Positions 1 to 57,668 of a stretch of DNA of 64,000 nucleotides are shown piece after piece; positions within the stretch are counted from its first letter, which is position 1, and each line of letters begins with the position of its first letter. The notes under the pieces are model-generated. The model had not been told where the DNA came from and searched no databases. It saw nothing but the letters and a program-made list of their open reading frames with translations. Source of the DNA: Tribonema minus (lineage: Eukaryota; Sar; Xanthophyceae; Tribonematales; Tribonemataceae); the NCBI GenBank assembly GCA_017506865.1, contig JAFCMP010000077.1:186001-250000 (forward strand). The letters are read 5' to 3'. A program made the translations under genes and the position numbers.

Positions 1-430
1 CTAGGTGCGTCACAGGTTGAAGTTGAACGGCTTCTTGTTCGTAGTTCAGCACGGCGTTCTGAACTCTAGGTGCGTCGTGTGTTGCAGTTGCATGGCGCCA
101 ATGCTTCAGTGCTCAAAACGCCACAATGCCGTTTGCGCGTTCAGCACGGCGTACTGCGGCCTAGGTGCGTCACGAATTAAAATCGCACAGCTCTCATCAT
201 GCATACAGCACGGCAAACTATGATGTCCGCGGTGCGTCACGCACCTTGAAGTTTGCGGCAGGGTATGATTTCTTGATAGCCTCCTCGTCCGGCACAGGGT
301 CGTGTGTACGGCAGGCGTTGAAGTTCGGCAGCACCATTCTGCACATCCAGTACGCCGCACGGAGTCATTTTGTACATCATGCATTGAAGTTCTTGCGCGT
401 TATTTTCTACGGTGGAGCACCGAAGTTCAC
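1..430. repeat. Degenerate repeats with donor-like ends, upstream of LANCL exon
   Basis: Four or five loosely spaced units share a core like TTCAGCACGGCGTnCTG followed by CTAGGTGCGTCAC. They occur near 44-80, 130-170, 200-240 and 345-360, with a further GGTGCGTCAC-type end at position 3. Each ends in something resembling a 5' splice site. By analogy with the rest of the window, I read them as decayed copies of the 3' edge of an upstream LANCL exon that lies outside the window. No intact exon is visible in 1-600. Confidence 0.5.
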
Positions 431-603
431 CACGCATCCTCATCATCCACGATTGTCATCCAATTATAGGCTACAACCAAAGATCATGCGCAACCAGTGC
501 ACGCTCTCCACACACGCAGGCTGTGCGTTCGCAATGGCATCACTTTGATATGTGTATCGTTGAAAAGGATGCGCATGGTGCGTGTGCTATCTGTATCTCT
601 CAG

Positions 604-3019: not shown

Positions 3020-4172
3020 CGCCGCCCTCTTTGAGCTCCGACGTCCCCCGCTTTACGCTCCGACGGCGCGCGTGGCTGCGCACATGGCATATTCACCACC
3101 GCACCGCGAAAACACACGCGCGCACACATCACACACACATTCGCGGCGCGGGGGGAGGAGGGGGGGGGGGGGGGCAGCGCCGCGCCGCACGCGCCCTTGC
3201 CGCGGTGCCTTCATCCTGAGGTCCGCCTGGCTGCTGCTGCTGCTGCCGTCGTCGCTGAGCCGCTGCAACCGCAGCGGCTGCAGGCACCTGAATCGGGCAC
3301 CACCCGAGGCGGCGGCGATGGCAGCAGCAGCAAATGGCGGTGTTGTCAGCAGCAGCGGCGACGGCGGCGGCAGCGCCGCGGCGCGCCAATTGCACATTGA
3401 TGAACACAGCGGAAGAACACACAGACGCGCCCGCGCGCGCGCACGCGGGAACGCCGAGGTGCTTGCAACAATGCAGCACAGCGGGCTGCACTGGCAGCAG
3501 CCGCTAAGCACGTCTCTCTCACTCTCTAGGTAGCGTGTTCATAGGTCCGGGGGGGGCACGCTGCCCCCCTCCCTGAGTGTTTCAGGGGTGGGGGGAGCGG
3601 CCCCCCCGCTCTCTGTCTTCCATGTGATAGGTTTTGCTGTAGCAGACTTCGTGTAGTTTCCATGCATCGTTTGTAGGGCTTGGCTAGGATGGCCTAGGGA
3701 CACAGGTGGGGGGAGTTGGCCGATTGCTCCAGTTTGATCACTAGCACACACGTGGGAAGAATAGAGGTCTCTCTGTGGATGTCTGTAAGTCGCCTCCGCT
3801 TTGGGCTGGTGCACATGGGGGGTAACACACACACACGGGGGGGGGGGGGGGGGAGGCAGAAAGGTGGTACAATCTGAAGTCATCACAGCAATTGTGAGTG
3901 CCGCGTGTGTGTTTGCTGCTCTTGCATTTTGCCTGCAATGCTGCCTGGTGCGTAGTCCACCAACTTTTGTGTGATGGAACGATGGTTTCTTGCGAGACTT
4001 CCTGGGCCAAAGGCCTGACGAATCGGGGACTTTATTAGTTGCCGTAGCCAGCGTGTGAGGGGAGGCAGGGGATGGCGCAGGCACCGCCCGCGTGGGCGCG
4101 AAGGAACTCGTCGCCGGGGCAGGTCGTTCAAACCCTAGCCGACCCCCCCTAACTTCGACTCAAACCCTACAT

Positions 4173-4775
4173 GAGACCGCAGCAGAGGCAGAAGGTCAAC
4201 TCCCTTTGGAGGCGCACAGAATCACGCGAATGTGCGCAGCTCGTTTCGCAGCGTTCACACACATACACATGGTATGTGTTGTCGTCATGGGTGCGCCCCC
4301 CCGCCAGGCCGCCGCGAGCGCAAAGCAGCAGCGGCGGCGGAAGCGGCGGAGGGCGCAGCCAAGTGCCCCCCCAATGCCCTACCAATGGCATGGAAAGTAT
4401 GAGCAATCTGCTACACACAGGGTTAAATGGGCGGATCGGAGAGGCGTTGGGAGACAAAGCAAAGAATTGCACACGAGACGCCAAGCATGCGAGTCCCGAT
4501 CCTCGGGCGCTCTCATCACGACAGCGCTCATTTTTCGCGAGTGTAAGCGGGGGCAAATCAGGTTCACGCCAAGAGGCATACACAGAACGACACACACCAG
4601 CCAGCTATGTGAAGCCTCTAGCGCGCAGGGCTGAGCCCTCTGTGGCGGCCCTCCTCTCCTCGCCTCCAGCACGCCAGCACGGCAGCGGCAACAGCAGCTT
4701 CCTGGCATCGAGCTCCGTCAAGCATGCGAGCTTCAACCTGCAGCTCCACGAGCACAAGCACGCGCGGCACAGGTC
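4173..4775 (+). CDS. Possible exon(s) of an unrecognised protein
   Basis: A plus-strand frame stays open from about 4173 to a good 5' splice site, CACAG|GTCAGT, at 4776. Its last 100 bp have a strongly GC-ending codon pattern and read naturally (SSVKHASFNLQLHEHKHARH). A plausible acceptor, CTCCTCTCCTCGCCTCCAG, lies near 4670, so the real exon may be only about 4672-4775. I recognise no family. No partner exons were found, so this is weak. Confidence 0.25.
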
Positions 4776-5112
4776 AGTGCTGTGAAGATATCGATGACAC
4801 TTCCTCTCCGCGCGAGCATCTGTTTTTGTCCGCATGCGCATTCTCTCGATCCGCGGCTCAGAGATTTGCCGTATCCAGCTGCCCAGTTTATTCACCGGAT
4901 GGATACTTTGCCCCTGCGTGTGCCCCAACGACGTGTTTGGCTGTGTTAATGCTTGTCAGCTTGCTGTAGCAGGCACCGTGGTCTCTCATGCATGTCAAAT
5001 CGCTTACACAGAGCCCTCTTTCTCTTCCTCCACGCTTCTCTGATCATGCAGGTGTATCTTGCCGACGCCTGCACACCACGCCACCAAGCACCTGCCACCA
5101 CGCCTCGCACGC

Positions 5113-9587: not shown

Positions 9588-12500
9588 CTAAGACCCCTTC
9601 TTCTTGTAGCCCTGCTTCTTCGCAAGCAACTTCTTCAGGCCCAGATTGGGCATCACGGGCCTGTGCGCTTGCCGCGTTGCGCGCTGTATCACCTGCATTG
9701 CCTCGCGCCGACGCGGCGGCAGCTCCGGCAGCTCGTACGAGGTGTAGTAGTCTGGCCGCTTCCCCTGCATAACATCACCACGCACGGCAGAAAGTCAGGG
9801 AGTCAAAGGTCATCAAATGACATTCGCATCCAGAAGTGTAGTCTTGCCTACTTCAACACTGTAGTCCTGAGTAATACAATGCCAAGCACGTCGCCTCTGC
9901 GTTGTGCGATGTATGGGCCTCGCGCCGCAGCGGCAGCAGCTCCGGCAGATCGTACGACGCGTGGTAGTCTGGCCGCTTCCCCTGCGTGAGTGCATCGATT
10001 AACTCAGAACGTTAGGGAATGGAAGATGAGGATACTACCGTCAAAGTCTTGTCTATACACTTTGCCAATCAGGCAACGGGCGATCGCCTCCGCATAGTCA
10101 TACTATAAGTGCATGTATGTCGCGCCGCGGCGGCAGCGCCGGCAGCTCGTATTCTGGCCGCTTTGCTGCAGGTGCCACTAGCGCCGCAATGCGAAAAAGT
10201 GAGGCCACCGTGCATGCGCCGCATACGCACATATACATGTACCTACTGACACATGCTACAACTTCTCTGGATGTGGTGTGTGCCACTACCGTAAATCACG
10301 AGGTATAAGATACCCGTTCCTTAACAACGCCAGCGTTTTGGCCCTCTTAGATACCGGTTTCTTATACGGCGTATAAGAAAGGGAGTATCTTACACAGCAA
10401 ACCTAGTATCTTACATACACAACTGTCAACATGCTATAAGAAACAGGTATCTTATACGGCGTATGCATGCGTCACCAACGGTGTTGGGGTCTTGAAGTTT
10501 GAGAGCAGGCGGAGAGGAGGCAGAAAGAGGTAGTACGGCTGAACAATGAATGCCGCCGGTGGTAGTGCAGCTGGTTTAGCCGGTTTAGCAGCAGCAGCAG
10601 CAGCAGCAGCAGCGCCACCAGCGATGGTGAATCAGATGACCACTATCAGCACCAGAGCCTGCTACTAAGCGCAAGCGAGGGCCTGCCAAGCTCATGTACT
10701 GCTTGCTGTATGCCTGTCATTGCTGCTTTGCTACAATTTGCAAGTTGCCTTGCTTGCTGCACAAGGTACGGGGTTTCTTATACCGTCGCTAGGGAACCCC
10801 CTTTCTTATACGCAAGGATTCCTTATGCCCGTGTAAGAATGGGTGTTTCTTATACAGCAAACCTAGTATCTTACATACATGCCTGTCAAAATGCTGTAAG
10901 AAACGGGTACCTTATACGCCGTATAAGATACCCGTTTCTGTGTTCTGTGTATCTTATATGCCGTATAAGATACCCGTTTCTGTGTACAAGGTACCCGTTT
11001 CTTACACAGAGGTACTATCTTAGACCCCGTGATTTACGGTAGTCTAGTACGAGATGGCCGTATAAGATACCCGTTTCGAAGTGCTTGTTGATTACGGCAC
11101 TTCCTCAAGTGCCGACACTCTGACTCGGAAAGCAGCAAGGTGCGATTTTGCCCATGGGGTGTGACTCATGTAAGTGCTCTTGTACAACTGAAGTAATATT
11201 GTATGGTTGAAGTATATTCGCCTCACGAAGCGTTGAGGGACGCCGGTGAAGAAACATCAAGGTCGTACAGCGAGCGTTGTATTGACGTCAACAGGGTAGC
11301 GCGTATGCACTGGCGTCAAGAGTGGATTCTGTAAAGTAGTAGACAGAATTCGTCACATTTGCATCAAGGACACATACAACACGACATGCGTATGTGCATG
11401 TTTCATGTCACTTGTGTCGCTTTCGGGGTATATGAGACGCGTATGCGTGCGTTTCATATCACATTCGTCGCTTCCAACGTCATATGGAGCATCGCTGCGC
11501 ACCTTGCCGCAGCCGAGGAACTCCGCCAAGTTCAACAGCGCGCCGCCCCGGTCGTACCAGTTGAAGGCGACGGCGGCGGGGGTTTCGTGCGAAACCGCCG
11601 TCCACGGGTAGCGCGACCAGTGCAGCCGCTCGTTGGTGGTGGCATTGCTCAGCGCGCCGCGCCACGTGAAGACGGCGACCGTGAGCAGCGTCAGCAGGGC
11701 GAGCGCTGCCACGGCGCCGAGCAGGAGGGTAGGTAGGTATGCGCGGCCGAAGAGCGTGGAGAGCACGTCCCAGGCGCTGTCGTTGGGGATCTGGGGGGGG
11801 GAGGGGGGGGGGGGAGGCAGGGGGGGGGGGCTCAGCCTTCAGGAAATGTATGTGGGGCAGATAGGATGTTGATGCACGTGACACGCAAATTGGCGGTGCT
11901 CAATTCTGTGTGCGTGATGCAATGAAGGCTTTACAGCTGATGTCGGCGTTGGCATGCAGGGACGGACGGGGCAGCGAGTGGGGCCCCTGTGCCCGAGTTA
12001 AGTGCATGCGTTGCCATGGCAGCATTGATGGCAGGCACTGTTGAGCACACGACAGCACCGCACAGCGGGCACGCCTCTCTGGCGAGCGCTGGTGGCACCA
12101 AGAGTCTGAGACATGGGTCTGAGACACGAGTTGGAGACATGAGTCTGAGACATGAGTCTGAGACATGAGTCTGAGACACGAGTTCGAGACATGACTCTGA
12201 TGACATCACCACACATGGTTGAGGAGATTAGGGCACGCATTGCCGACTACAGTACCCTGCCGCGAAGGGCGAGCCGCAAACTTGCCAGCAGAACAGGACT
12301 GTTGTGAGCATGCACGCGCTACTGCAGGTATCTGTTCACGGCACATTCTGCAAGCGGCAAACGATCACGCCGCCAGCATCCGTCGTGTAATCTGCCACTG
12401 GTCACGCTGCACACGCATGACGCCAGTTGCTTCTAAGGTGTGTGCGCCCAGAGCAAATTTCATATATTACTGGCTGAGATTCGTTCATTCAATCATCCAT

Positions 12501-15500
12501 TCATTCAATTCATTCACTCATTTGTGCTGCTCGCGCAGATGTGCGCAATTGAAGCAGTTCAGCACGCTGGCCACCTGACGCGGGCTCAGTGCCGTTGCGT
12601 CTCATTTCAAAGCATTTCCGGAAAGCGCCCTGTGAAAGCATTCCAGGAAAATGGTTGCTTGAAGCTGGCGCTCACCTGACTCCGCCAGGCGACGCTGGAG
12701 AGCGGTCGCATGCTTAGCGGTTACGGCAGTTACACCTGCCGCTGGACAGGCCAGTGTACATTCAAATCCAGCGGCATACGACTGCTGTCTGTCTTCTGTT
12801 GCACTGGTCACCTCAGTACCAACTGACGGTGTACAGCTTAGGTTTAGGGTTAGAGTACAGCTTAGGTTTAGGGTTAGGGCTAGGCTGGCGAGCAACAGCT
12901 CATTACATTGACTGCCAAAGATTTGACGGAGACCACAGACCGCGTGCTCACCTCCCTAACCCAGGCGACGATGGAGAGCTCTTGCTAGTATCATCAACAT
13001 AACAACTTCAATATTAATCAATAAGCATACTAAGAGTTGTTAGTGTGATTTTACTCTTGCTTGTTTGTTCTTTATCAACGTCAATGAAAACCGCACATGT
13101 GTTGTTGGATGCGGCCTAAGCCTTGCATCCTTACTCACCTCCCTACGCCAGGCGACGACACAGAGCGCGAGCCACAGGGCATTTTTCGATTTCTTGCTAA
13201 TTGTTTAAAGATTGCGTAATCAAAGAGCGTATATACTAAGCCTTGGAATATTTACTCACCTCCCTACGTCAGGCGACGACAGACAGCGCAAGCCACAGCG
13301 CCACCAGCGCCAGGCAATGACAGCACCGTATTAATGCATTTCAGGAAAGCGCCTTATTATAGCATTTCAGGAAGAGTGCTGACCTCCTCCTTACGCCAGA
13401 CGACGACACAGAGCACGAGCCACAGCGCCTTTTCAATTTCTTGTTCATTCTTAAATGCGTAATTAAACACCGTATATTGTTGGATCTGGTCAAGCCTTAT
13501 AATATTTTCTCACCTCCCTACGCCAGGCGACGACAGAAAGCGCAAGCCACAGCGCCACCAGTGCCAGGTGTAGCGTCACAAACGCCAGAAACGGCACCTG
13601 GTTCGCTATGCCAATGTCCGCGTTGATCCAGCCACTGTCGGCGCGGCAACATTGACGCAAGTCAAAGTGTGAAACAAAGCAGGCGAGCGGAGCATTTTTG
13701 GCCTGCTGAAAATTTCGACAAAGATAATTTTGAAAAAAATGACAAGACTCCAAACATCAATGTGCTTCAGAATCCAACGTTCGTTTTTTTTTGTAGGTGA
13801 GCACTCCAGTCATGTTTTCCCGCTGCTGGCGGGGCGAAATTCAAAAACTGGAGCAACGAGTGAAACCAAGCAAATGAAGCAAGCAATGCACTGCTGTACA
13901 GCAAGGCATCAGCGGGCCAAGTCATCAGTAGGCAAGCTTGACTGTTTGTGAACTTAACCCTCTGGTGACATCAGAGGTTCTGAACAACCTGGTCTTGCTT
14001 TACGCCGTCAGCCGCTTGAAATGTCCGGTTCTCTTTTTTTCGTCATCTGGCCGCAATCAGGCGTCTGAGCAGGGTGCAATGACTTGGGATCGAATTCAAG
14101 TGCTTTGTCGTACGACTCCGCATGGCGTGCGCAGAGAGGTGGGGAATGATGAGACGTGCTACGCACGGATGCGCGCAGTCCGCAGATTGGCACGTCACGG
14201 TTGAAGTTGCAGCTTGCGCCTGCGTGAATTGAGCATATCCAACAGCTGCCTCCCTGTGAGCCCTTGCGGGTGCACTAATGAGAGCATAGATGTATCCAAA
14301 GGTTCACAATGGGGGGAGCGGGGGCTTGCTGAGTGGTTAGATTAGGGTTAGGGCTAGGGTTAGGATTGCGGTTGGTGTTAGGATTTGGTAGGGTAAGGGC
14401 AGTGCTCACCAGTGGTGGTCGAACCGCGCGACGCAGGCTCCGCACTCCCTGCAGTGCTTGGACCGCAGCGGCTGCACAAAAATACAGACAGAAGTAGGGT
14501 GATGACTGCAGTTGAGAAACCACGCATGCATCGCGGGTGGGCGGGTGCCACAGTGAGACTAATCATGCTCGTTTGCAACGGCGTCACGTGCTGCTTGAGC
14601 ACTGTTGCTGGGTTAAGGTTAGGGTCAGGGTTACCCTAACCCTAACCCTCCCTGAGGTGCACAGATCTGAACTTGAGTTGCTGCCGCCTTGATTTCGACA
14701 ACGCAACGTTGTGGAATGGCAAATGCGCTGCTCCCTCAAACGCAACCATTGATGTGTCCAACTGCTTGAGCCAGGGCTCATTAGGCCCTTGGGATCAACG
14801 AAGTGCGCCAGGCTGCTCAACAGAAGTCAAGCAGGTGCATGAACGCATAGCACGCGATGGGCCACCTGTACTGCTGAGTACAGTGATGAGTTCAGCGTGC
14901 AGTGCAGATGGAAACCGGCACAGCGCGACCATGTGCACGAGAAACTGAGCCATGGCTCTGCCAGGGGGTGGTGGTGGGGGGACGGGGGTGCCTTTTGAAC
15001 CCAACCCAGACCCTTACGCTATCCCTAGCCATAATTCTGACCCTGAGCGTAGCCCGAATAGGCGCCACACTGCGCAGGCACTGATGGCAACGTGCCCTCG
15101 AGCCAAGAAATCAACGCTGCTGCCTTGTGTGCGAGCACTGCCACATTGTGCGTACATTAAAGAAGGAGACGGCGTACGTCCAGGATCAAGCAGGTGTCAC
15201 GTGCCCTCGCGCGAAGCAAGCAGAGCTGCTACCGCGATTGCAGGCAGTACGCGCGCTGAACACTCCCTATCGTAAAATGCAACAAAAAACTCAGTTTCCA
15301 TCAGTAGGTAATACGCAAAAGAGTCTGATCTTGCGGATTGAGCACACGCCACACACTTCTCTTTTCTTTTGTCGAGCACCAACAAATGTATTCTTCCCCA
15401 TTTGAACCAAAACGAGTGTCACATTGCAGATCACGCACGCGCCACAGCACTGATGAGATCCTCATGCCAAAAGCGGAAGTTCTGCCATCTGTGCAAGCAG

Positions 15501-18500
15501 TTCAAACTCCAGCAAAATAGAAATCCGCACCTTGCGAATCAAGCACGTGCCACAGATGAGGCGCTGGTCGGGCTCGTCGGCAACGGTCGCCGTCGCCATC
15601 AGGCAGTCGAAGTCGCGCTGCGAAGGCTGGCATGCACACAGCAAGATGGGCATGCATGGTGAGAGGTGGGAGCGGTGGCTGAGTTGTTAGGTGAATTCTG
15701 CACCAAATGAGCACCGCGTGCATATCTGCAATTTTCAATTGTGGCGCGGCTGCACACGGTGTGATGTGACATCGCAAAAGGTGGCCACCACGGTTTAACT
15801 ACTTTGCTGTAAATGTACAGCCAGCATGCAACGAAATCGCGCTGCGAAGGCTGGCATTCGCACCTCAAGATGGGCACGCGTTGAGTGGTGGCGAGAGGGT
15901 GGAAACTGTGGCTGAGATGTTTGATGCATTATGCGCCAGATGAGCACGGGGTGCGTCTTTGCGTGCACCGCTTGCAGGCGGCACGGCTGCTCACGGTCAT
16001 GATGTGACGTCGGTGAAGGTGATCGCCACGGTTGTGGTCTGCTTGGCATGGGATGTAGAAGGTCAGCCAGCACGTGCAGAACGCAAATGGAATCGTTCTA
16101 CAGTTTGAAATAAATTGGTGCAAGTTGACAAAGGGCGCTTTGATGGCGTGCTTGCAAATGTCCTCAGCAGCAATCTGTGTCGGACACAGAATGTCAATTG
16201 TACACGCATATGAACATGTACATCGACGTGTATATACAACAACGAAGTACCTCAAACTATGCTTACACATTGCATGTGCTTGAGGTATACACACCAATTT
16301 CAGAGTATGCGAGATTATTGCAGTATCACAAGATGTGTGATCATAAATCATTGCAGTATCGTCACAGAGACAAGTGTCATCATGATCAAATAATGTAAGT
16401 ACTGTGAAAAACCCTATGCAATCCATAACAAGTATAATGTAGTTCACTGGAGTACACAAGTCACGCACCCGTATCATCCCTGGATCCGGCTGTAGCAGCA
16501 CAAGCCACGCCCAAAGCGCCATACTGAGCACCAGCAGCACAGCCGCTACCCACAGGGCCCATATTGACCCGCTGCAATTGGCAAGTCAGCAGCACGCAAG
16601 TGAATACGCCTTCGATGCGCTGTATATCCTGTACTCTATGTGTACTATGCGTGTACTGGGTGTACCCAAGTTGCAATCGGCAAACCGGCAGCAGGCAAGC
16701 GAGTACGCCGTAAGCGCCGTGTCATCATGTACTCTGTGTGTACCTTGCCTGTACTGAGTGTACCCAAGTTACGGTTTGCGTGTGCTACGCTTGTACTGGG
16801 CCCACGCTGATACGCTGCAATTGGTAGGCCAGCAGCAGAGTGGGACAGGTGCCGGTTACTGTTGACAACCGATGACAAGTGCCGCACTCATCGTAGCTAG
16901 CAATATCGCAACTTTTGCCACCGATAGCCAATTGTGAAGTGAGGTGGCATGCCAAAGATGGCTAGCGGTGCGTATGACATGATAGGCGCAATCATCAACA
17001 GCTGCATAGAACAATTACATTTCGGGAAGTGCCAGGAGGGCAGCAAGGCAAAAGTAACAATGACACCAGGCAAGCCAGGCGATAAAAACTGTCGCAACCA
17101 AGGCAAATGCTTAGTGTTAGGGTTAGGGTTAGGGTCAGAGCAGAGGAGTAGACTTTGTGCAAGGCGAACTCATCATAGATGATATACTTTATTAACTGGG
17201 CAAAGACCATCAACCGTGCTGGTCTAGGTATGGAAGCAATGCAAGAACGTAATGCTTACATTTAAGTACTTCGGAGTATCACAGTATTAAGTTGACATGA
17301 GGTAGATGTCCTAGGCATGCCAGCATGCCGTCGTATACATACTCCTATAGGTGTACCTTTGATGCAGTGAGTGCTCAGGATGATTGCCATCGCAGCCGGC
17401 CATCCTTCGCATCACAACAAGCGGAAGATGAAAGTGGTAAATGACATGAAGTACGTGAATGTACGTTACTTTCATAAATCCCTGACACAGAGCCGATTCT
17501 GCACTTCCATACGTATTGACGCACATTCGTTTTGATGTACACATGCATAGCTTTTGTCGCAGTGAGTGTCAAGGGTAATACCCGTCGCCACCGGTCGCCC
17601 GTCCATACGGCACTAGAAACTACACATTCATAGATGTCACGTGCATAGTATAGACGTTTTCCCCCTCTGACCACCATGGTACTTGGCACATCAGACGTAT
17701 CTCGACGCACATTCAAGTATAAAGTTGCAGATGACACGTACTTTGCAGTATTTGCTCGTCTCTTTTCTCAGATATCCATGTCACTGAGTCATTTGTGTAC
17801 TTTCCGATGTAAATTGATTTTCAAATGCGTACCTCTTGCGCAGTGAGCGCCCAAGGTAATTGCTGGCACCTGGTAATCGCCGTCGCCGATGGCCATCCTT
17901 CCATACACTATGGCTACAGATTATTAGGTAGAATTGACAGATGACGTGTACTTATTTGAGTTCTTCCTCGACAGTCCGTTTTCATATTTCCCAACGTACA
18001 TGTCAAGATGCGTACCTTTTGCGCAGCGAGTGCCCAGGGTAGTCGCCGTTGCCACCGACCATCCTTCCATATAATGATATGCAAATATTAGAAGCATTAA
18101 GTTGGCAGATGACATGTACTTCACAGTACTTGTTTGTGTTCTTTGGAACACCATCAACTCTCATTTCTCTGCATTTTCCGACATGTACTGTTTGAATATG
18201 CCCACCTTTTGCGCAGTGACTGCCCAGGGTAATCGCCGTCGCCGCCGGCCAGCCTCACAGCCACTATGGCTACAGATTAGAATTGACAAATGATGTGTAC
18301 TTATTTTGTGTTCTTCCTCGACAGTCAGTTTTCATATTTCAAGATGCGTACCTTTCGCGCAGTGAGTGCCCAGGGTAGTCGCCGTCATCGCCGGCCAGCC
18401 TCACGGCCAGTGGGTAAGTGTTGTTTTGTGTTCTCCGACGTATACTGTTTAATATGCCCACCTCTTGCGCAGTGAGTGCCCAGGGTAATCGCCGTCGCCG

Positions 18501-24500: not shown

Positions 24501-27500
24501 CGCAGTCAATTACGGCGCGCCTGCTGATCAGTCATAATGATACAACATAAAATAAATATAATGAATGAATGCACGTCATGTGTCGGCGCGCGTTGGCGCG
24601 GCCGATTGCAGGGAATGGCACATAACCGCCACTCCCCGTGCCCACCAGCCACAGCAAAGCGCAGCATAACAAAGAGCTTGAAAGGTACCATGCTCGTGGC
24701 ACAACTTCCCTGCGCAAGTCTGACGGCAACGCATGCAAAATGCCAAGCAGAGAACAATCAGCAGTGCTCAGCACGTTGACATTCGCCAGATGCGCGCCTG
24801 TGCACAACGCAGACGAAGTCCGACTGTGGCAATGGAATAACGTGCACTGCTCAGCAGCAGCGCAGCAGTGCTCATTAGCTTGAGGCTTCGCGTTGCAGCC
24901 CATGCGCGCAGAAGATCAGATTCAGATTGAGGGTTCGGGTCAGGGTCACCCGGAAAACTGATTGCTAGGCCATGTGCATCGCCCAACGGATGAGGAGCGC
25001 TCAGCACCTTGAAGAGGTACGCAATGCACCCGAATTTGATGTGCAAACACATTAGCAGACATAAGTGTTTCGATGGCAAGCTAGAATAAGGTTCAGCTTC
25101 CTGGACCCTAGCTCTGTGCAGGTTTGGGCGAGGGTCAGGGTCAGGTTCGACCATGCATATTGCTGAGCGGGGCAGCACCTTTACGTTCGCGTCGCAGCCG
25201 ACGCACGCGCCTTTGAACGTGTTCAGACACGCCCAAAGAAAAGCGAATTGAAATCTGCATAGCTCAGCAACCTGCATTGCTCATAAGATAAAGCAGTGCT
25301 CGGCGCCTTGACGTTCGCGTCGCAGCCCATGTGAGCGAGGCACGCGCGTATGCAAAAAAGTGGATGAAGTCCGACTGTGGAACGAAAAAAGCCATGCGCA
25401 TCGCTCAACAGACAAGCAGCGCTCAGCACCTTGATGCTCGCAGTGCAGCCCATGCGCGTGAGATGAGAGGAAGGTTTAGGGTTGGAGTCAGGGTAACCCT
25501 GACGACCAAGTACAAGTAACTGCTAGGCCATGTGCGTCGCTCAACTGATCAGGAATGCTCAGCACCTTGGCGTTTGCGATGCACCTAAGGTACATAGCAG
25601 ACGCTAGTGTTAACGGCAGGCTAGAATCAGATTCAGTTTACTGGACCCTAGCCCTGCGCAGGTTAGGGCAAGGGTCAGGGTTAGGGTTGACCTAAACCCT
25701 GACAATTGTCGGACATGCACATCGCGCAACGGATCAGCAGTACTCGGCACCTTGACGTTCGCGTCGCAGCCCATGCGCGCGAGGTACCAGCAGACGTCCT
25801 CCTGCCCCTGCAGCGCCGCCCAGTGCAGGCAGTTGCGCGCGTTGCCGTCCAAACGCCGCGGATCCTGTGCATAAACACCATACATACACACATGTTTCGT
25901 CTTTAGGAGTCTCAATACTTGAAGTATCTACATCAAAGAAGTATGTGAAGAAGAAGAAATTGACATGGAAAAAAAGGGGCACAAATGCATGCCCCCTGCA
26001 AGCGCCGCCCAGTGCAGGCAGTTGCGCGCGGTGCTGTCCCTACGCCTCGGATCCTGCACTCCAACACCATACAAACATACTTGTTACATCCTCGAGAGTA
26101 CCCATGGTCAAACTATCCGCATCAAAGAAGCATATTGATAAGTAGCTGGCAGGAAAGAAAGGGGCACAAAGTTATGTCCCCTGCAGCGCCGCCCAGTGCA
26201 GGCAGTTGCGCGCGGTGCCGTCCAAGCGCCTCGGATCCTGCACGCCAATGCCATACACACATATGAAATGAGTACCAATACTTCTTGAAGTACCTGAAGT
26301 ATCCACGTCAAAGAAATATATTACAGAAGCAGCTAGCATGGGAAGAAAGGGGCACAAATGTATGCCCCCTGCAGCGCCGCCCAGTGCAGGCAGTTCAAGC
26401 GCCTCGAATAATGTGCACCAGCACCACGTACATACATGTATGACACAATGAGCATTTGAACTAGAAGTGCACTCATGTTTGAACAATTACCAATAAACTT
26501 CACAGCACATTCTTTTGAAGTGCATTCGAGTACAGGTATATGCCCCCTGCTGCGCTGCCCAAAGCAGGCGGTCGCGCGCGGTGCCAAGCGTACTAGCATC
26601 ACAGCACTTGCGCCATCTGCCGACTTAGGGTTAGGGTTAGGATTAGCGTCAGGGTTAGCGCGCCGTCACCGGAACATTGACCTGAAACCGCACCTCGCGA
26701 GCTGTCGCAATGTGTCACGGCGCTCGCAGCACGCGCCGCCTGCAGTGCCCACTCACTGCATGTGCGCGACCACTTTTGTGTTCTTTGTACAGTGCCGAGC
26801 CGTGCTGCCGCCGCAGACCCACCTACCTGCCCACTGCACAGCAGCACGTGCACGATTCACGGGCACTCCCAACGCGTGTCGGTGCTCGTAGCGTGCGCGG
26901 ACTGCTGCAGCGCGAGGCACACGCGCAGCCGCTTCATGTGCTGTTGTTGAGCGTGCTGTCACTCGCCGCATGTACGCGACCACACTCCTGGGGTTAGGGT
27001 TAGGGTTAGGGTTAGGGTTGGGGTTTGTTTGCAGCGCTGAGCCGCGCTGCAGCCGCGGAACCCACCCGGCCGCTGCGCAGCGGCCCCTGACCTTCACCTC
27101 AACCCCAGCTTCAAGAGCAGGCGCAGCGTGGCATGGCGTTGACAGCATGCACCAACCGCAGCGCGCAGCACGTTTTGTTTTGCCACATGGCCGCTGCGCA
27201 GCAGCATGCGCACGATTCACGAGCACGTGTCAGTGCCCGCAGCGTAGCGCCGACTGCCGAAGTACAAGGCACATGCACAGCCGATCCACATGCCGATGTT
27301 GAGGGTGCTGCCACTCGCTGCACGCATGTAATACATTCTATTTCTTGGTGTCGTGCTGAACCGTGCTGACCCACCTGGCCGCTGCGCAGCAGCACGCGCA
27401 CGGCGCCGAGGTGCCCCGCGTAGCACGCCCACTCGAGCGCCGTGTGGCCCTCGGCGTCACCGCGGCCCGCCAGCGCACGCACGGCGTCGGCGCCCTGCGT

Positions 27501-38803: not shown

Positions 38804-38858
<55 letters not shown>

Positions 38859-51800: not shown

Positions 51801-53625
51801 AACGCAGTGCAAGTCGACGCAAGTCGAGCGCGCTCTGACCCTAACCCTAACTCTACCCCCAAGAAGCGTGCGCAATGCTCTCAGCGGATCCCTAACTCTA
51901 CCCCTAAGAAGCGTGTGCGCAATGCTCAGGGCTCGGACATGAAGGGGCGTAGCCCTGACTCAACCCCAAAGCCGACTTACCCTTACCCTTACCCTCAGCT
52001 TTGGGGGCGAACCCCAAACCTGCATCATTATTCTAACGCTAGACTCAACAGCTAGCCCTGTGGCTCAGAGGGGCGGGCGGAGCGCTGACACATATCTGAC
52101 GGCTTAGGGTTGGGTTAGGGTTAGGGGTTAGGGTTAGGGTTAGGGTTAGCGCTGAGCTGAGAGATGTGACGGCGGGAACAGGGGGGTCAGTTCGAGGGTA
52201 GGGTGAGAGTAGTGTTGGGTAGAGGCTGCGATGAGCTGCTTAGGGCTAAGGTGAGCGTAACAAGGTAATAATAAGGTAGGGCATAACAGCACGCCTTTGC
52301 AGGACGAGGCGGTAGCGTTCAGCTCACGCTGGACTTCACGCTGAGCTGTCAACACGGGGAGTGAAAAAGCCCTGCGTTCGCCGCACCCGTCATTGCAGGC
52401 GGCACACATGGACTACGAGCTCAAGGGGAAGGGTAAGAGCAGAGTAGGAATGAGTGAGAGCTGGGGTTTTGCAACATGTCTTTGCAGGACACAAGCGGTA
52501 GCGTCAAGCTCACCACGAACTTCACGCCAAATGGTCACCTTCAACATCATGTCGCCACGCCGCTGTGGCCCGTCGCAGGTGGCGCCGCACATGGACTATG
52601 AGCTCGAGTCAACTTCACTTCGAACTTCTTTCTTAATTCTCAACTTCAACATTGCAGCTGCGCCGCTGCGGCTCGTTGCAGGTGGCGCACACAGACTATG
52701 AGCTCGAGTCAAGTTCACTCCGATCTCCACGCCAAATTTTCAACTTCAACGCCGAATTTTTAACTTCAACATCATGTAGCCGCGCCGCTTGCGGCTCCTC
52801 GCAGGTGGCGCACGTGGACTTCGATATCGAGTCAAGTTCACTCCAGACTTCTTGCTGAATTGTGAATTTCAACATTGTAGTTGCGCCGCTGCGGCACGTC
52901 ACAGGTGGCGCACATGGACTACGAGCTGGAGTCACAGCTGTGGGGCATGGGCGACGCCATGCGGCGCTGCGCGCTGGCCAAGGTATGTAGGTATGCATGT
53001 CCGCATTTGTTCATACCTACGTATTGCCTGTGCTGATGAGCTGGCCTGGCTGTCACTTCGAACTTTGGCTCTTGAAGAGTGACGAGCTGCTGGGGGCGTG
53101 GATTTGCGGTTTGAACTTCAAGTACCCGTGCTTGCCCCAATCGGTAAATCGCTTTAAGATGTAGTGTGCCAATGTACGAATGCATGTTTGCTTTCGCTCA
53201 TACCTGTGTACTGCCTGAACTTGGGCGTGCGCGGACGCGCAGCATCACACGTGAACGATACTGCATTGCACGTGAGTAAGCACACTTCAAGAAGGACTTA
53301 AAGAAGGACAAGCCTTGGGGTGATCGCACGAGCGTTCAAGTGACCGGCAGTGCGCACCGAGACACTATCAAGGCGTTCACAAGACACATGCAGATTCTGG
53401 TTGCAAGCTGGACATCCGCCATCTGGGCTTCTTCGCGCCCTAAGCGCGAATTTCAACAAGAAGTACAAGCCTAGGGCACTGTGCATGTGAACACCAGGTG
53501 ACCCCCCCCCCCCCCCTCCTGAACCTCTAGCACATACATACGTGCATACACACTGACGCTGCTCCTCGCGCCGCGGCCGACATCTTGCTGCTCCCAGGTC
53601 GCAGACGTCCTGCAGCGGCAGCAGT

Positions 53626-53664
<39 letters not shown>

Positions 53665-56600
53665 CTCAGAAGATATCTGCGCTGATGGACGTGGGGGCCG
53701 GCACGGGGCGCTTCCTGAGCGCTGTTGCCGACAACCACAAGGACCTGCGCCTCACCGCGGTGGACCTCAACCTCTTCTGTCTGCAGGTGTGTAGTAAGCT
53801 TGCGTACTGGTCTGCGTACTTTATGCACTTGCGTTTGCTGGGTGGACACCCCTGTCACAGTCAAGTATAAACTTCAAGTGTGTGATGTACGCATAGCGCA
53901 TCTCTGATGCGTGTACTTCATGCACCTGCGCTGGCTGGGTCGAGCCCCTGTCCTAGCGAAGGCATGCACTTCAAGCACGTGCGCGTTGTGGCGTCAACTT
54001 GCGGCCTGTTGGGACCATCTTTGCGTAGTTTATGTAGAACTCTACCGGCAAAGCGGGCCGTGCTTGACAACTCGGGACCCGCGCTTGCGGCAGTAAACGC
54101 ATGCATGTTGCCGTGCCCCCAGGCTGTCAGGCCACAGACGCATCACCTCTCACCACTGCTGCTGCACTTTCGCTGTGTTTTGATGGTCGACAGAGCACTG
54201 CAATCACAGCATCCCTGCTGCCGCGCTTTTGCTGTGTTTTGATGGTCGACAGAGCACTGCAATCGCAGCATACCACACCACTGCTGCCGCGCTTTCGCTG
54301 CGCTTCGATGGTCAACAGAGCACCATGATCACATCATCTCCTTACTGCTGTTGCGCTTTTGCTGTGCTTCGATGGTTGACAGAGCGCAAAGCGGGCCCTT
54401 CACAGCGACGCGAGAGCCTCGTTCGTGGAAGCCAACGCGGAGTCCCTGCCGGTGCAGTCCGGCACTATGGACGTGGTGACGTGCCTATTTGTCCTCAGCC
54501 AGCTCCCGCAAGACGCGCAGGTATGCATTGTAGGGTTGATTGAGGTAGAGTTCGGGGTAGGGGTCGGTATTAGAGCCAGGATTAGGGCTAGGACAGGGGA
54601 TGAAGAGTTTGTTTGCAATATGTATTGTCGGTGTAATGAACATGTCTCTGTCATTTTGTATTATGGATGTGGTGACGTGCCTGTTTGTCCTCAGCCAGCT
54701 CCCGCAAGATGCTCAGGTACGATTGGTGAGCTAGGGCTAGGGTTGAAGTAGACCGTTAGAGTCAAGTAGTGCACTTGAAGATAGAGGTGTACATGTTCTC
54801 CGGTGCAGTTTGTCCTCAGCCAGCTCCCGCTAGATGCTCAGGTATGCAGGGTCGACTGATTTAGAGTAGGGTTAGGATTAGGGTTAGGCAGGTATGTAGG
54901 GTCGATTGGGATAGGGATACGATTAGGGTTAGGTTAGGTCACTATGGATGTGGTGACGTGCCTATTCGTCCTCCCGCAAGATGCTCAGCTCCCGCAAGAT
55001 GCTCAGGTAGGTCGGGTTACGTAGGGTAAGGGTTGAAGAAATGGTAGACAGTTTGCATCAAGTGTTTCACCTGAGTTAGAGGTTGACGTTGTCTCCGGTG
55101 CAGTCTGGCAGCATGAACGTGGTGACGCGCACGTGCAGGTATGTAGGATTGATTCGTAACCCTAAGGTAGGGTTTGGGGTCAGGGTCAGGATCCGATCCA
55201 GGGTTATGTAGGGCTACGGACAAGGAGATGCAGAGTTTGATGGCGAAATGTGTCATCGCTTCCACGAATTGTCTCTGGCACTATGAATGTGGTGGTGTGC
55301 CTAGCTGTCCTCAGCCGGCTGCCGCCGGACGCGCAGGTACGTAGGATGATTGGAGGCAGGGCTTGGGGTTAGGGTTACTATTAGAGCCAGGGCTGTGTAG
55401 GGCTAGGACAAGGAGATGCAGAGCGTGATCGCAATATGTCTCTTCGCTCTCACAAAGATGTCTCTGTCATTTTTTGCTGAGCACTGCTGCTGTGCACCAG
55501 CCAGCTCCCGCTGAATGATGAGTTCTGTGGAAATGAGTTGATTATTGGGTATTGAGCACACTCAAACCATGGCTCAGTCAGGTCCCGCTGGACGCGCAGG
55601 TATGAGGGCTCGATTGGAGGTAGGGTTTGAGGTTAGGGTTAGGATGCGACCCAGGGTTATGTAGGGCTAGGACAAGGAGATGTAGAGTGTGATTGCGACA
55701 TATCTCGTCGCTGTCATGAGCGTGCCTCTGCCGTTGTGTACTGCGCACTGCTTAGGGTTAGAGTTAGGGTTGGGGTAAGGGTTAGGGCTAGGGTTAGGGT
55801 TAGGGTTAGGTTTACCCTAACCCTAACCCTAACCCTAACCCTAAGCCATTGTGTACTGTGCACCAGCACGCTCTCACTAGTTGCTCGAGAAATCATATTA
55901 TTTGACACTGTGTGTTTTTTGTACAGGCGGCGGCAGTTTCAGAAATGGCGCGTGCGCTGCGCCCCGGCGGCAGCCTCGTCCTCCTCGACTATACGCAGCC
56001 GCAGTCCGATGGCGACGGCGCGTGCATGCTGCACCGTGTGTACACAGCTGTACTCTTTTCGCATCGCGCATCATTCTTGAATACAAGTTTATTACATGGA
56101 AAAATATCAATAAATAGACTTTGACTTTGTGCAGGCGGCGGCAGTTTCAGAAAGGGCGCGTGCGCTGCGCCCCGACGGCAAGCTCATTTGCAAAGTTGTC
56201 ATTTTCTTGCATCGCGCCTCAGTCTCAACTTCAGATTATTTCACATTGTCTTTCTTGCTGCAGTCAGCGGCAGTTTCGGAAATGGCGCGCGCGCTGCGCC
56301 CCGGCGGCAGCCTCGTCCTTCTCGACTACACTCAGCCGCAGTCTGATGGCGATGGCGCGTGCACGCTCAGCAGGCTGCACGGGCTGCCAACAGGGGGGCA
56401 GAGGGGCGTGGAGGTAGGCAGGGGTATCCTGGGGGCACCCCCCCCCGCCGCCTACGCTGCGTATTTGAAGGCGGATCTGGAGTACCTGCTCATTAGGGCG
56501 GGGTTGTTCGTGGAATCCAAGGAGATCAACTGGGTGTCCAAGGTGGGTGTTTGGGGGTCTGAGGTGTTGGAATAAGGGCGTAGGTGATATTGTGCTACGT

Positions 56601-57668
56601 GCGGTGTGGCGGCTTTAACGCACCCCCGCTTTCTCAGGCTGTTGTGCGCGCCCAAGCGTTGTCGATGCAGCGCACCTTGCTACCTGCATGATGCATCTCT
56701 GAACGACACTTGCAACAAGTATCGTACCTGTGCGACACTTGGCTGATATTCTGGTGTAGGCTAACGCATCTGTGCCCGTACGACACTTTGATAGCTTCTA
56801 CACTAAGTAATAGAGTGTTGCACAGGAACCGAGATGCGTTGCATTGACAACACCTGGGAGCACACTTGGTCCATGAGGACACGTCTGTGCGCTCAGATCA
56901 GGCTGCTTTGAGCCCCAGCCAGAGACAATCGAGCGGTCAGATACACCGGCAGGTGTTAGGGTTAGGGTTAGGGTTAGGGTTAGGGTATGGCACGTGCAAC
57001 GTTAACCCCGGGATTGGGGTTACGCTTAAGGCAACTACACGCCGCGGCCGCATGCCGCATCATTTGCGTGCCAGTGATTGCGTGCCTGTGGAGGCAAAAG
57101 GGCCATTCCATATACGATGCGCACATTCAAAATCTGATGTCATTTTTGCGAGACAGACGTACAAGGGTGCAGTCAAAGTGCTTCAGTCAGTACATTCTGA
57201 AGCCACTCCCAGCAGAGCTGGTGACTGCCAAACCCCTGGAAAGGACTGGCCGCACAGGTGATGTGCAACAGTGTTCTTTCTGTTTTCACGCTGTGGAATT
57301 CCTCACGAGCTTCACTGCCCGCAACAATAATTCACCGAGCATTTATTTCCCAATCACGTAACCACTTGGTCCTGAATGCACCTGCACCCCACCCCCCCCC
57401 TAACCCCACCCCTGCGTCAAATCTTCTCACAACTTGGGTCCTAAATGCGTCCGCCCCCCCTCTCCAACCTCCCTGCCCCCCCCCCGCCCCCCCCATACAC
57501 ACACACCAGGTCCTGGTGGCCACCAAACCCCCCGAGGTGGAGGCGCGCGACATGCACAAGGGGGGCGCCGCCGGTGCAAACACCCCCGGAAACAAACGCG
57601 CACGCACCGGTGGCGTCGCTTACTCCCCTGCCCTGGATGAGCCGCGCCTGGATGGCGTCGGCTTCTGA
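42813..57668 (+). CDS. Class I SAM-dependent methyltransferase, 12 exons, 663 aa
   Basis: Exons: 42813-42941, 44191-44595, 45680-45811, 46756-46925, 47408-47461, 48796-48885, 50208-50376, 52905-52982, 53598-53786, 54383-54520, 56264-56542, 57510-57668 (TGA). They total 1992 bp and all phases close. Exon 1 encodes a basic start, a hydrophobic VVHALALLALAGPGADAF and then FSVGSTTGRVRM, which looks like a signal peptide plus transit peptide of a complex plastid. Exon 2 is Pro/Gln/Ala-rich filler ending in a helix. Exon 7 carries GRYPRYFLEAWGGGGEALLS, and exon 8 MDYELESQLWGMGDAMRR. Exon 9 has SAM motif I (MDVGAGTGRFL) and LTAVDLN after a 12-Ser run. Exon 10 has VEANAESLPV and MDVVTCLFVLSQLP. Exon 11 has MARALRPGGSLVLLDY and a C-terminal AGLFVESKEINWVSK strand. 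This is the UbiE/COQ5-like (Methyltransf_11) fold. The substrate is unknown. Confidence 0.9.
44690..44860 (+). repeat. Two copies of the 3' edge of methyltransferase exon 2
   Basis: GAGGCGC.CGAGCGCGTGGCGC, CGCCGCC..CGG.GTGT, CCAGAACTTTGGGGTGAGAAG at 44697-44770, and a weaker copy at 44792-44860. The intact edge ends at 44595. The downstream text AGTTGAAGTTG..GT, GTCGTTGCGTCGCTG is co-duplicated. Confidence 0.9.
45460..46115 (+). repeat. Edge copies around methyltransferase exon 3
   Basis: Upstream at 45464-45545 is a nearly complete copy of the acceptor and first 75 bp (GCGCAGGACCGCGTGCGCGC, TGTGGACGCGGACATTATGCG), with its flank CACAAAACCACGGCAGTT also repeated. Downstream, copies of the donor edge (CTTCGTCTCCCAGGTGCGTC, ACCTCCAGTTG) lie at about 45890-45950, 45965-46010 and 46062-46110. 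Confidence 0.93.
46320..47350 (+). repeat. Edge copies around methyltransferase exon 4
   Basis: Acceptor-side copies (CCGCTGCCCAGGGCGCGGTG, CTGCT) lie at about 46327 and 46575. Donor-side copies of GACGCCGTGACGTCCAAGTG, AGTCAGTGAGCTGCTGCTGT, ACT lie at about 46998-47045, 47140-47165, 47215-47255, 47266-47305 and 47315-47350. The intact donor is at 46926. Confidence 0.92.
48640..49400 (+). repeat. Edge copies around methyltransferase exon 6
   Basis: Upstream copy 48650-48730: CTTGGCCCCGTGTGCGGGAA, GGAGGCCGACGCCTTGGAGC, GCGGCGCCTTCAAGTT. Downstream donor-edge copies (GTGAGCCCGGCGCCGACCGC, AGGCGGCAAGCTAAATTCAG, GTGACGCTCCC) lie at about 49038, 49143, 49250 and 49340. The intact exon is 48796-48885. 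Confidence 0.93.
49390..50130 (+). repeat. Four large decayed copies of methyltransferase exon 7 start
   Basis: Units of about 165-185 bp start near 49486, 49655, 49820 and 49998, with a partial copy at 49393; the intact exon begins at 50208. Each contains CGCTGCTTGCTGCGTGCGCTC, CAGCCCCGTGGCCCTACTTC, AAGCGGTCGACGC, then GCCGCCTGAGCGCTGCTGC, TTGCAACTTC.GCGCC. Here the copied part of the exon is over 100 bp. Only the last copy continues into RYPRYFLEAWGGGG. Confidence 0.95.
50677..51538. mobile_element. Second MITE-like element, inverted CAGAGATGGCGCGT ends
   Basis: Both ends read inward CAGAGATGGCGCGT. Subterminal text is rich in ACCGGT and ACAAGTT blocks in both orientations. Flanks CAACAATC (left, 50669-50676) and CAACATC (right, from 51539) resemble an imperfect 8-bp target duplication, as hAT elements make. 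No transposase frame is visible. It lies in intron 7 of the methyltransferase gene. Confidence 0.6.
52100..52152. repeat. Interstitial telomeric (TTAGGG)n
   Basis: GGCTTAGGGTTGGGTTAGGG, TTAGGGGTTAGGGTTAGGG, TTAGGGTTAGCGCTGAG: about seven units with single-base slips, in intron 7 of the methyltransferase gene. A related CCCTAACTCTACCCC..AAGAAGCG repeat is at 51840-51915. Confidence 0.92.
52390..52850 (+). repeat. Four-rung ladder of copies of the 5' edge of methyltransferase exon 8
   Basis: GCAGGTGGCGCACATGGACT, ATGAGCTCGAGTCAA.TTCAC recurs at about 52397, 52574, 52679 and 52801. The intact exon begins at 52905. Spacing is 178, 105, 122 and 104 bp. The text between rungs (AACTTC.AC, CGCCGC.GCGGC.CGTCGCAG) is repeated. 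Confidence 0.95.
53325..53470 (+). repeat. SINE-like dispersed repeat related to the LINE 3' tail, copy B
   Basis: GTTCAAGTGACCGGCAGTGC, GAGACACTATCAAGGCGTTC, ACAAGACACATGCAGATTC, GCAAGCTGGACATCCGCC, ATCTGGGCTTCTTCGCGCCC, TAAGCGCGAATTTCAACAAG, AAGTACA. It aligns over about 100 bp with the LINE tail at 31866-31965 and with the short repeats at 18945 and 58350. Confidence 0.8.
53628..53663 (+). repeat. Coding (AGC)12 microsatellite, poly-Ser before SAM motif I
   Basis: Twelve AGC codons in the methyltransferase frame, giving a Ser12 run 7 codons before the DVGAGTG motif. The frame is fixed by the neighbouring codons, so this is Ser rather than Gln or Ala. Its length is likely to vary between strains. 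Confidence 0.9.
54150..54375 (+). repeat. Ladder of copies of the 3' splice site of methyltransferase exon 10
   Basis: TTTTGATGGTCGACAGAGCA, CTGCAATC.CAGCAT, CTGCTGCCGCGCTTTCGCTG recurs with rungs at about 54181, 54239 and 54307. The functional acceptor GGTTGACAG is at 54374-54382. Spacing is about 58-68 bp. Each rung keeps GACAG|AGC. Confidence 0.95.
54560..55610 (+). repeat. Seven-rung ladder of copies of the 5' splice site of methyltransferase exon 10
   Basis: TATGGATGTGGTGACGTGCC, TGTTTGTCCTCAGCCAGCTC, CCGCAAGATGCTCAGGTA recurs at about 54662, 54808, 54945, 55104, 55271, 55498 and 55578; the intact edge ends at 54520. Most rungs keep an intact CAG|GTAnG donor. Each is followed by GTAGGGTTGATTGGGGTAGG-like text that grades into TTAGGG. 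Confidence 0.95.
55751..55846. repeat. Long head-to-head telomere-like palindrome
   Basis: About nine TTAGGG-type units (some degenerate) run up to GTTAGGGTTAGGTTTACCCT and then turn into five CCCTAACCCTAA-type units. The two arms are mutually complementary and could form a hairpin of 20-30 bp. It lies in intron 10 of the methyltransferase gene. Confidence 0.93.
55920..56205 (+). repeat. Two decayed copies of methyltransferase exon 11 start
   Basis: 55925-56035 reads AAVSEMARALRPGGSLVLLD, YTQPQSDGDGACMLHR before losing frame. 56131-56200 reads AAVSERARALRPDGKLI. The intact copy begins at 56264 (SAAVSEMARALRPGGS) and continues for 93 codons. Upstream text CGCATCGCGC, TTGTGCAGGCGGCGGCAGTT is also repeated. 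The first copy is almost intact and could in principle be spliced. Confidence 0.93.
56957..56988. repeat. Interstitial telomeric (TTAGGG)n
   Basis: GTGTTAGGGTTAGGGTTAGG followed by GTTAGGGTTAGGGTATGG: five clean units in the last intron of the methyltransferase gene. Confidence 0.95.

Follow-up and report, generated by a model that had tools for sequence, protein, structure and literature searches.

Minisatellites are born and expand in introns and consist of a homogeneous short unit in many copies, and in tandem exon duplication exon sequence is copied next door. Two other systems are also comparable with the present case. In the consulted sections of three reports, tandem genomic duplication of an AGGT-containing segment inside an exon is described as producing a new intron (PMC3443670, PMC2891723, PMC4974935). 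Introners are presented, in the parts considered of two further papers, as dispersed families of similar elements that increase the intron content of protist and algal genomes (PMC9860276, PMC7789003).

The window analysed here is a stretch of 64,000 nucleotides of Tribonema minus (contig JAFCMP010000077.1, positions 186,001 to 250,000), in which many exon edges are accompanied in the adjoining introns by diverged copies of themselves, arranged in ladders. Like minisatellites, these ladders are local, direct and head-to-tail, with copies overdispersed among junctions (mean 0.76, variance 2.0 per junction); unlike minisatellites, they have units of about 60-350 bp, few and diverged copies, irregular spacing and in many cases a piece of exon, and no homogeneous short unit in many copies was seen. 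They also differ from tandem exon duplications, since at the junctions studied the copied part is an exon end with one splice site and not a whole exon, and the copies seem to decay as junk. Intron gain by AGGT duplication, as far as the cited sections describe it, shares with the ladders short tandem duplications containing AG|GT, an extra copy that is spliced out and an unchanged protein; however, there the duplication lies in an exon and makes an intron, whereas here it lies over an existing junction or within an intron and lengthens that intron. Intron birth of the AGGT type itself, a route mentioned in the first-pass annotation, left no signal in 17 introns, whose donor and acceptor regions did not resemble each other (the mean score was 7.8, and 7.5 when the pairs were mismatched; in three of the introns, L070 2828-3532, L070 4041-4322 and L074 5847-6191, one end is set a few bases off or is uncertain). 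Full-text searches of an open-access collection, which omits most subscription papers, turned up no description of ladders as a common intron architecture.

Genes in the window were modelled from Pfam matches and visual reading of the sequence, and two genes were modelled in place of the four counted earlier. The ankyrin-DHHC gene lies on the minus strand with exons from 34469 down to 11503, and its single-exon Pfam scores are all below the curated cut-offs. Its ankyrin-like exon 34333..34469 (acceptor 34469/34470, donor 34333/34332), assigned by eye from its translation, has two acceptor-side copies upstream at 34590..34700 (offsets -125 and -212; 93% over 43 nt and 87.5% over 48 nt) and three donor-side copies downstream at 33730..34130 (offsets 234, 365 and 571; 74-82%). 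The ankyrin exon 27375..27494 (Ank_2, E 1.1e-5, just under the curated cut-off) is preceded by two acceptor-side copies at 27600..27830 (offsets -146 and -294; 77-79% over 80-82 nt) and followed by three short donor-side copies at 26800..27200 (offsets 188, 309 and 548; 85-94% over 25-34 nt). Upstream of the ankyrin exon 25751..25864 (Ank_2, E 1.7e-4, under the cut-off), acceptor-side copies at 26010..26400 (offsets -189 and -373) belong to an array with a period of about 189 that reaches 26395, and downstream of its donor at 25750 a ladder of seven donor-side copies occupies 24740..25600 (offsets 185 to 976; 76-89%). The membrane-segment exon 16469..16571, assigned by eye, has one acceptor-side copy (offset -243). 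Searches found no copies of the DHHC exon 14410..14471 (DHHC, E 2.3e-5, under the cut-off) or of the C-terminal exon 11503..11790, which was assigned by eye and carries a motif that we take to be TTNE-like. All features of this gene are on the minus strand, and 7 of its 12 edges have copies.

The methyltransferase gene is located on the plus strand from 52905 to about 56.5 kb, as are all of its features, and one of its exons scores above the Pfam cut-off. The exon 52905..52982, assigned by eye, has one donor-side copy (offset 187) and is preceded by four acceptor-side copies at 52390..52840 (offsets -102, -223, -326 and -506), each with its own AG. No copies were found in the search with the exon 53598..53786, which holds the start of the SAM-binding domain (Methyltransf_12, E 0.0037, under the cut-off). 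The exon 54377..54520, whose 5' edge is not fixed, gave the match above the cut-off (Methyltransf_11, E 1.3e-8); downstream of its donor 54520/54521 a ladder at 54660..55610 comprises six copies by eye and five by BLAST, with the GT kept in all four copies that span the junction. Two acceptor-side copies at 55915..56190 (offsets -338 and -130) lie upstream of the exon 56264..56530 (acceptor 56263/56264, reading frame by eye, 3' end not fixed). Copies are thus present at four of six edges. A weak match to a bacteriocin-like Pfam family in a low-complexity stretch (E 0.0021; 19.5 bits, where the cut-off is 40) was taken as chance.

For both genes together, searches with 80-nt queries gave local copies at 11 of the 18 exon edges assigned. 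Elsewhere in the 158-Mb genome, kinesin and TCP1/Cpn60 genes have copies within 800 bp at 25 of 75 exact splice junctions (33%), a rate not strictly comparable with that of the window because 60-nt queries were used there. The 75 junctions are those of 98 domain-internal edges whose GT/GC or AG could be fixed by eye, the other 23 being left out. Because of low complexity or a broken frame, six of the 60 loci do not enter the density-by-distance counts, though a donor from one of them (L048) is part of the 75-junction set. The edge copies are therefore real and not limited to the window, and the earlier statement that most exons are flanked by them holds for the edges assigned in the window and shrinks to about one third elsewhere. 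The claimed orientation was borne out: acceptor copies lay upstream in 10/10 and donor copies downstream in 15/15 cases outside the window, where the sole off-side match mirrors a 20-bp duplication straddling the donor of L054, and 32 of the 33 edge copies in the window were on the predicted side, the remaining one lying on the unexpected side of acceptor 27494 (+80 nt, 75% over 44 nt). Ladders of up to six or seven copies had also been reported, and the longest, at donor 25750, has seven. Divergence from the exon ranges between 0 and 32% and rises modestly with distance in the window (concordant minus discordant pairs 29/80, permutation p 0.0056), so that the proposed outward gradient exists in a loose form, with the nearest copy the least diverged in 9 of 16 cases versus 5.6 expected; due to the common history of the copies in one ladder, such counts are not independent. 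That a single intact copy closes the reading frame is an assignment made by homology and not from RNA.

Self-comparison of the window, whose GC content is 50-68% by 4-kb blocks, gave 111 repeat pairs, 102 direct at a spacing of 36-1079 bp, 5 direct and distant, and 4 inverted. A direct copy within 800 bp was found for 849 of 3197 60-nt windows (26.6%) and an inverted copy for 75 (2.3%), and 17 (0.5%) had a direct copy in the double-width comparison bins at 5.0-5.8 and 10.0-10.8 kb. In the kinesin and chaperonin genes, 171 of 825 intron windows (21%) had local copies, facing both ways (112 up, 107 down), and seven had inverted ones; for exon interiors the count was 6/160 (4%). Local head-to-tail repeats are present, including many TRF arrays with a unit length close to the offset. 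Short segments are thus tandemly duplicated, the tandemness being imperfect in many pairs. TTAGGG was also observed at many contig ends of the genome.

We consider it likely, with a probability of roughly 0.8, that the ladders are fossil tandem duplications, formed because non-coding DNA is duplicated at a high rate and left as copies stranded in introns that decay neutrally. Short segments of tens to about 350 bp would be duplicated head-to-tail, presumably by replication slippage or unequal exchange. A duplication within an exon would break the frame and be purged by selection, and one within an intron would be harmless. Duplication over an acceptor would give the order intron, exon start, intron, exon start, exon, in which the exon-proximal acceptor alone keeps the frame and is probably the one spliced, with the extra copy stranded upstream; over a donor, the extra copy would be stranded downstream. 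The one-sidedness would then follow from the need to keep the reading frame. With each further event the older copies would move outward and the intron would become longer, existing repeats may promote further duplication, and stranded copies would afterwards decay neutrally.

Local direct duplication as the source is supported by the pairs themselves, which are tandem where they can be read cleanly. In 17 distinct gapless pairs of young age, including the duplication across the L054 donor, unit length was close to the offset. Against this reading, 428/445 high-identity gapless pairs (402 at an identity of at least 90%) were shorter than 0.9 of the offset. Anchored extension of 122 deduplicated young pairs placed 16 at a length/offset ratio of 0.8-1.3 and 90 below 0.7, these ratios being rough because extension under the null is itself wide-ranging (95th percentile 110 nt). 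Some of the pairs below 0.7 are non-neighbouring rungs, and the remainder point to fast turnover of intron text or to filler in many duplications. The lengthening of introns by junction-spanning duplications is supported by a pair of LHC paralogs as one example, picked for differing lengths: two matched exons are 969 bp apart on C1, where there are two acceptor rungs, and 663 bp apart on C79, where there are none, and the outer rung on C1 lies 288 bp out, against a difference in exon spacing of 306 bp (n=1). The LHC proteins of the genome match fucoxanthin and other antenna proteins, which together with the TTAGGG ends suggests that the genome is that of a chlorophyll-c alga.

A stronger form of the duplication reading holds that junctions are special targets, for example through breaks or replication trouble, such as R-loops, linked to splicing or transcription, and that introns grow chiefly from their edges. 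Junction windows do have more copies than intron text (27-38% versus 9-22%), also at an identity of at least 90% (16-22% versus 2-8%), and copy density is 17-22% within 250 nt of exons and 9-13% past 400 nt, a drop that uniform duplication does not predict. However, copies exist for 16.8% of the intron text at a distance of 40-100 nt from an edge, no more than the 19-22% at 100-250 nt, and the slower decay of edge pairs by itself yields a 1.4-fold detection bias in simulation. The observed edge excess over introns, 33% versus 21% or 1.6-fold (interval 3 to 22 percentage points), is close to this bias, though it may exceed it. An equal density in intergenic controls had been named beforehand as evidence against the idea, and eight arbitrarily placed loci, of unproven intergenic status, nearly reach it with local copies in 242 of 1176 windows (21%), as dense as introns. 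After the intron-only windows and the detection simulation, junction targeting is not needed and appears unlikely to us. Of the interpretation as intron growth by junction duplication, what survives is local direct duplication, intron lengthening and the outward position of older copies, without the specificity for existing junctions.

A functional role of the rungs, as alternative or mutually exclusive exon ends or as selected decoy sites that regulate splicing, could be read from the splice dinucleotide being intact in 60 of 68 copies (32/35 plus 28/33) and from the 20 of 32 donor copies that score at least as high as their own real donor, the corresponding number for acceptor copies being 11 of 35. 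Yet dinucleotide retention is near the 78% of exon-side comparison dinucleotides (59% on the intron side), the level to be expected if one copy drifts neutrally. Exon-side mismatches at codon positions 1, 2 and 3 in 57 copies outside the window amount to 117/1163, 108/1152 and 198/1158 (10.1, 9.4 and 17.1%), the exon side of copies holds 61 gaps, mostly single-base, and intron-side mismatch is 22.0% over 3474 aligned sites in all 67 anchored copies. Drift at all sites of the relic, at silent sites only in the exon and in both members of intron pairs would produce this pattern; the copies thus seem to evolve as neutral junk, and coding constraint was rejected for the bulk of them. Tandem or mutually exclusive exons would have two splice sites and coding constraint in every copy, which was not found; the codon pattern is near-neutral and the copies are one-sided exon ends. 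Function is therefore very improbable as a general explanation. Some young edge copies have an intron-side divergence far over twice that of the exon side (L016 copy at -172: 21.7% versus 2.7%), and here exon-to-copy conversion is possible. Recursive splicing via exons starting with GT was set aside after a hand count of junctions (GT starts in 5/13 with ladders versus 10/26 without, about equally common), and at intron ends a suspected motif, GTTGAA with its complement TTCAAC, was weak (GTTGAA 11 donor-side versus 2 acceptor-side, TTCAAC 5 versus 8).

Insertion of mobile introners that bring or duplicate splice sites has given rise to introns in various eukaryotes, according to the consulted part of one paper (PMC9860276). 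Introners resemble the ladders in adding to intron content. They can hardly account for the ladders, because the copies match their own exon and the many near-identical dispersed copies typical of introners were absent at the two ladders searched. The 1.9-kb ankyrin-gene ladder (24700-26600), the cleanly searchable one, has a single match in 158 Mb, itself, and this uniqueness argues against a mobile element; for the methyltransferase ladder, the matches elsewhere in the genome, among those listed, all fall on its telomere-like stretch. An assembly artefact, for which no point in favour was found, is practically negligible as an explanation, given copies that diverge by 0-32% from the exon and ladders that recur in different genes and on different contigs.

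Many copies have scores like those of genuine sites and thereby set a trap for gene prediction. Since a ladder presents the spliceosome with a series of similar sites whose spacing is known, it also constitutes a natural experiment in splice-site choice. Splice choice mainly by position, with the first donor past the exon and the acceptor nearest to it preferred over stronger sites, is a tentative and rather doubtful proposal, which the stronger scores of donor than of acceptor copies fit but do not prove. If true, junction-spanning duplications would be nearly free, growth of introns from their edges would become one of the chief ways in which the genome expands, and the decoy splice sites left behind, near-perfect and datable, would number in the thousands. 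If the ladders are genome-wide, they would record the lengthening of introns, with every copy standing as a neutral and datable relic of a single duplication.

Repeats in the window are predominantly direct and local. Self-comparison yielded 111 repeat pairs (102 direct at 36-1079 bp, 5 direct and distant, 4 inverted), and in a scan with 60-nt windows at a 20-nt step (n=3197) a direct copy within 800 bp was found for 849 windows and an inverted copy for 75, while the wider bins used for comparison (5.0-5.8 and 10.0-10.8 kb) gave a direct copy for 17. Splice junctions, 18 in all, were assigned in two genes: a plus-strand methyltransferase gene (Pfam Methyltransf_11, E 1.3e-8, over the cut-off) and a minus-strand ankyrin-DHHC gene (Ank_2, E 1.1e-5; DHHC, E 2.3e-5; both under the single-exon cut-offs), which we take to be AKR1-like. 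Local copies of the exon edge were present at 11 of these 18 junctions and formed ladders, i.e. rows of decayed partial copies in the flanking intron. Seven copies lie downstream of the donor at 25750 and five downstream of the donor at 54521; four lie upstream of the acceptor at 52905 and two upstream of that at 56264. Only 1 of 33 copies, a weak one at +80 from the acceptor 27494, was on the wrong side. Long ORFs resembling a LINE-type reverse transcriptase by eye (28999-31812, plus strand) sit between two ankyrin-DHHC exons on the strand opposite to the gene, and local duplications around them are few: in three successive 1-kb bins starting at 29001, the share of windows with a copy is 6, 24 and 0%.

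The same pattern was found in chaperonin and kinesin genes elsewhere in the 158.18 Mb genome (554 contigs). Domain searches returned 56 Cpn60_TCP1 and 132 kinesin matches, and edge copies are visible in the raw output: on contig C51 matches begin near profile position 52 three times (21979, 22169 and 22346), and on contig C5 the profile end at 224 is reached twice (353216 and 353558). Of 98 domain-internal edges at the 60 top-scoring loci, 75 were set by eye as exact junctions, namely 37 acceptors and 38 donors. These loci represent few underlying genes, and several of them share one gene. Copies within 800 bp occurred at 10/37 acceptors (27 matches, none downstream) and at 15/38 donors (31 matches, one upstream, which mirrors a 20-bp duplication straddling the donor of locus L054). 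Thus the exon-edge copies are real and recur in further genes, and the rule that acceptor copies lie upstream and donor copies downstream was confirmed apart from the two matches named. Copies were found for 6/160 exon-interior windows and for 171/825 intron windows, in the latter similarly in both directions (112 up, 107 down). Two of the 38 donors (L021, L031) apparently carry GC instead of GT, and the polypyrimidine tracts are rich in C runs (109 overlapping occurrences of CCCCCCC in the 200 nt before the 37 acceptors, loci L009-L063).

The ladders fit a conveyor model, in which a fresh junction-spanning duplication would be inserted beside the working splice site; arrays may also grow by internal expansion. 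As the first-pass annotation had noted, divergence increases with distance (16 junctions with at least two copies; 80 pairs, concordant minus discordant 29, p 0.0056), and copy number is overdispersed among junctions; both fit this model. In neutral ageing, a stranded copy would drift freely (about 10%), the working exon would change at silent sites only (adding about 7% at third positions) and both members of a pair would drift in their intron text (about 20%). Of 68 junction-spanning copies, 67 were alignable from the anchor. The 57 of these outside the window had 117/1163, 108/1152 and 198/1158 exon-side mismatches at codon positions 1, 2 and 3, and intron-side divergence over all 67 was 22.0% of aligned sites, as expected on these assumptions, with individual copies scattering widely. 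Exon-side gaps numbered 61 and were mostly single-base.

Clean head-to-tail structure was seen in TRF arrays and in young pairs at 17 distinct places, where length and offset are about equal. However, length/offset was below 0.7 in 90/122 young pairs even with anchored extension, and therefore intron turnover or filler must join the model. Some copies, such as L073 2739-2778 and L085 2080-2119, are 100% identical over 40 nt in surroundings little alike by eye, a possible sign of local conversion or of duplication with filler. Consistent with intron lengthening by junction-spanning duplication is a pair of LHC paralogs, picked for their length difference, in which the gap between two matched exons is 969 bp with two acceptor rungs on contig C1 and 663 bp with none on C79. 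LHC genes stand in the same mirrored arrangement on two long contigs (C1:1236836-1242132 and C79:1257657-1261277); because, where compared, exon pieces share 83-90% while the intervening intron is without match, they look like old paralogous blocks, not alleles. The LHC family has 92 matches in the genome, counted by exon, and the best solved relatives of two tested proteins were fucoxanthin antenna proteins and long multi-domain LHC chains. Together with TTAGGG arrays at many contig ends, this marks the source as a photosynthetic alga, and probably one with chlorophyll c. Between two myosin-head gene copies on C79 (611082-615574, minus; 689257-694866, plus) one intron differs by about 1 kb (879 vs 1880 bp between matches).

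The two ladders searched speak against mobile introners: the 1.9-kb stretch with the longest ladder of the window matched only itself in the genome and, in a search that skips very common words, among the matches listed of the 805 for the second ladder, all outside itself were on a telomere-like stretch, so no dispersed family was found there. TTAGGG/CCCTAA tracts occur in introns and elsewhere (window 14610, 19361-19452, 26991, 52104, 55752-55844, 56955), and since similar arrays stand at many contig ends, the repeat would fit the telomere motif of this genome. CCCTAA is reported as the telomere motif of Phaeocystis globosa (GC 64.6%), in whose genome report the intron passages deal with rhodopsin genes and are silent on edge copies (PMC11347835). 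Tandem duplication of an AGGT-containing exon segment is an established route of intron gain; a review, which tabulates 188 events, calls it the only one of the mechanisms proposed that had by then been demonstrated in vivo (PMC3443670), and Drosophila cases are described alongside intron sliding (PMC2891723). There the segment is exonic, whereas here the duplication spans an existing junction, and this as a common intron anatomy was not found in the literature search results. In 17 introns for which both ends were given (median length 523 bp; one end slightly off or uncertain in three), no resemblance was seen between donor and acceptor regions.

Whether junctions are special targets is a separate matter. 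Copies were found for 27% of acceptor and 38% of donor windows; the intron rate was 16.8% at 40-100 nt from the exon, 19-22% at 100-250 nt, 14% at 250-400 nt and 9-13% beyond 400 nt, and 2.3% in exon text more than 80 nt inside. The junction excess vanishes in windows of pure intron, and we read it as detectability, edge pairs staying alignable longer because selection holds one copy. When the same search was simulated, with ages spread evenly up to 40% and the indel rate assumed, detection bias came to 1.4-fold; the observed ratio was 1.6-fold (33.3% vs 20.7%; difference 3-22 points by bootstrap), and a modest true junction excess may lie beyond the bias. Eight arbitrary 3-kb loci, possibly genic and hence no clean intergenic control (coding signal in 8/8, from a model partly trained on the wrong strand), had local direct copies in 242/1176 windows (20.6%; range 0-54% per locus), as many as introns. 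We therefore read duplication as common to non-coding DNA generally and somewhat concentrated near exons, beyond what uniform duplication would predict: duplication at existing junctions stands, but their targeting does not follow. Most likely, a mechanism of an ordinary kind is at work, tandem duplication plus reading-frame selection, and the ladders seem unusual in degree.

The splice dinucleotide is kept in 60/68 copies (32/35 acceptor, 28/33 donor), against a background of 78% intact exon-side and 59% intron-side dinucleotides; this is near the one-copy drift level, so selection for the signal is not needed. Splice scores exceeded the 10th percentile of real sites in 24/32 donor and 31/35 acceptor copies, a level reached by 0.4% (donor) and 1.6% (acceptor) of intron positions at large; the spliceosome would have to pass over many good copies of this kind. 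The copy matched or beat its own real site in 20/32 donor and 11/35 acceptor cases, a contrast that is suggestive only, because copies within a ladder lack independence.
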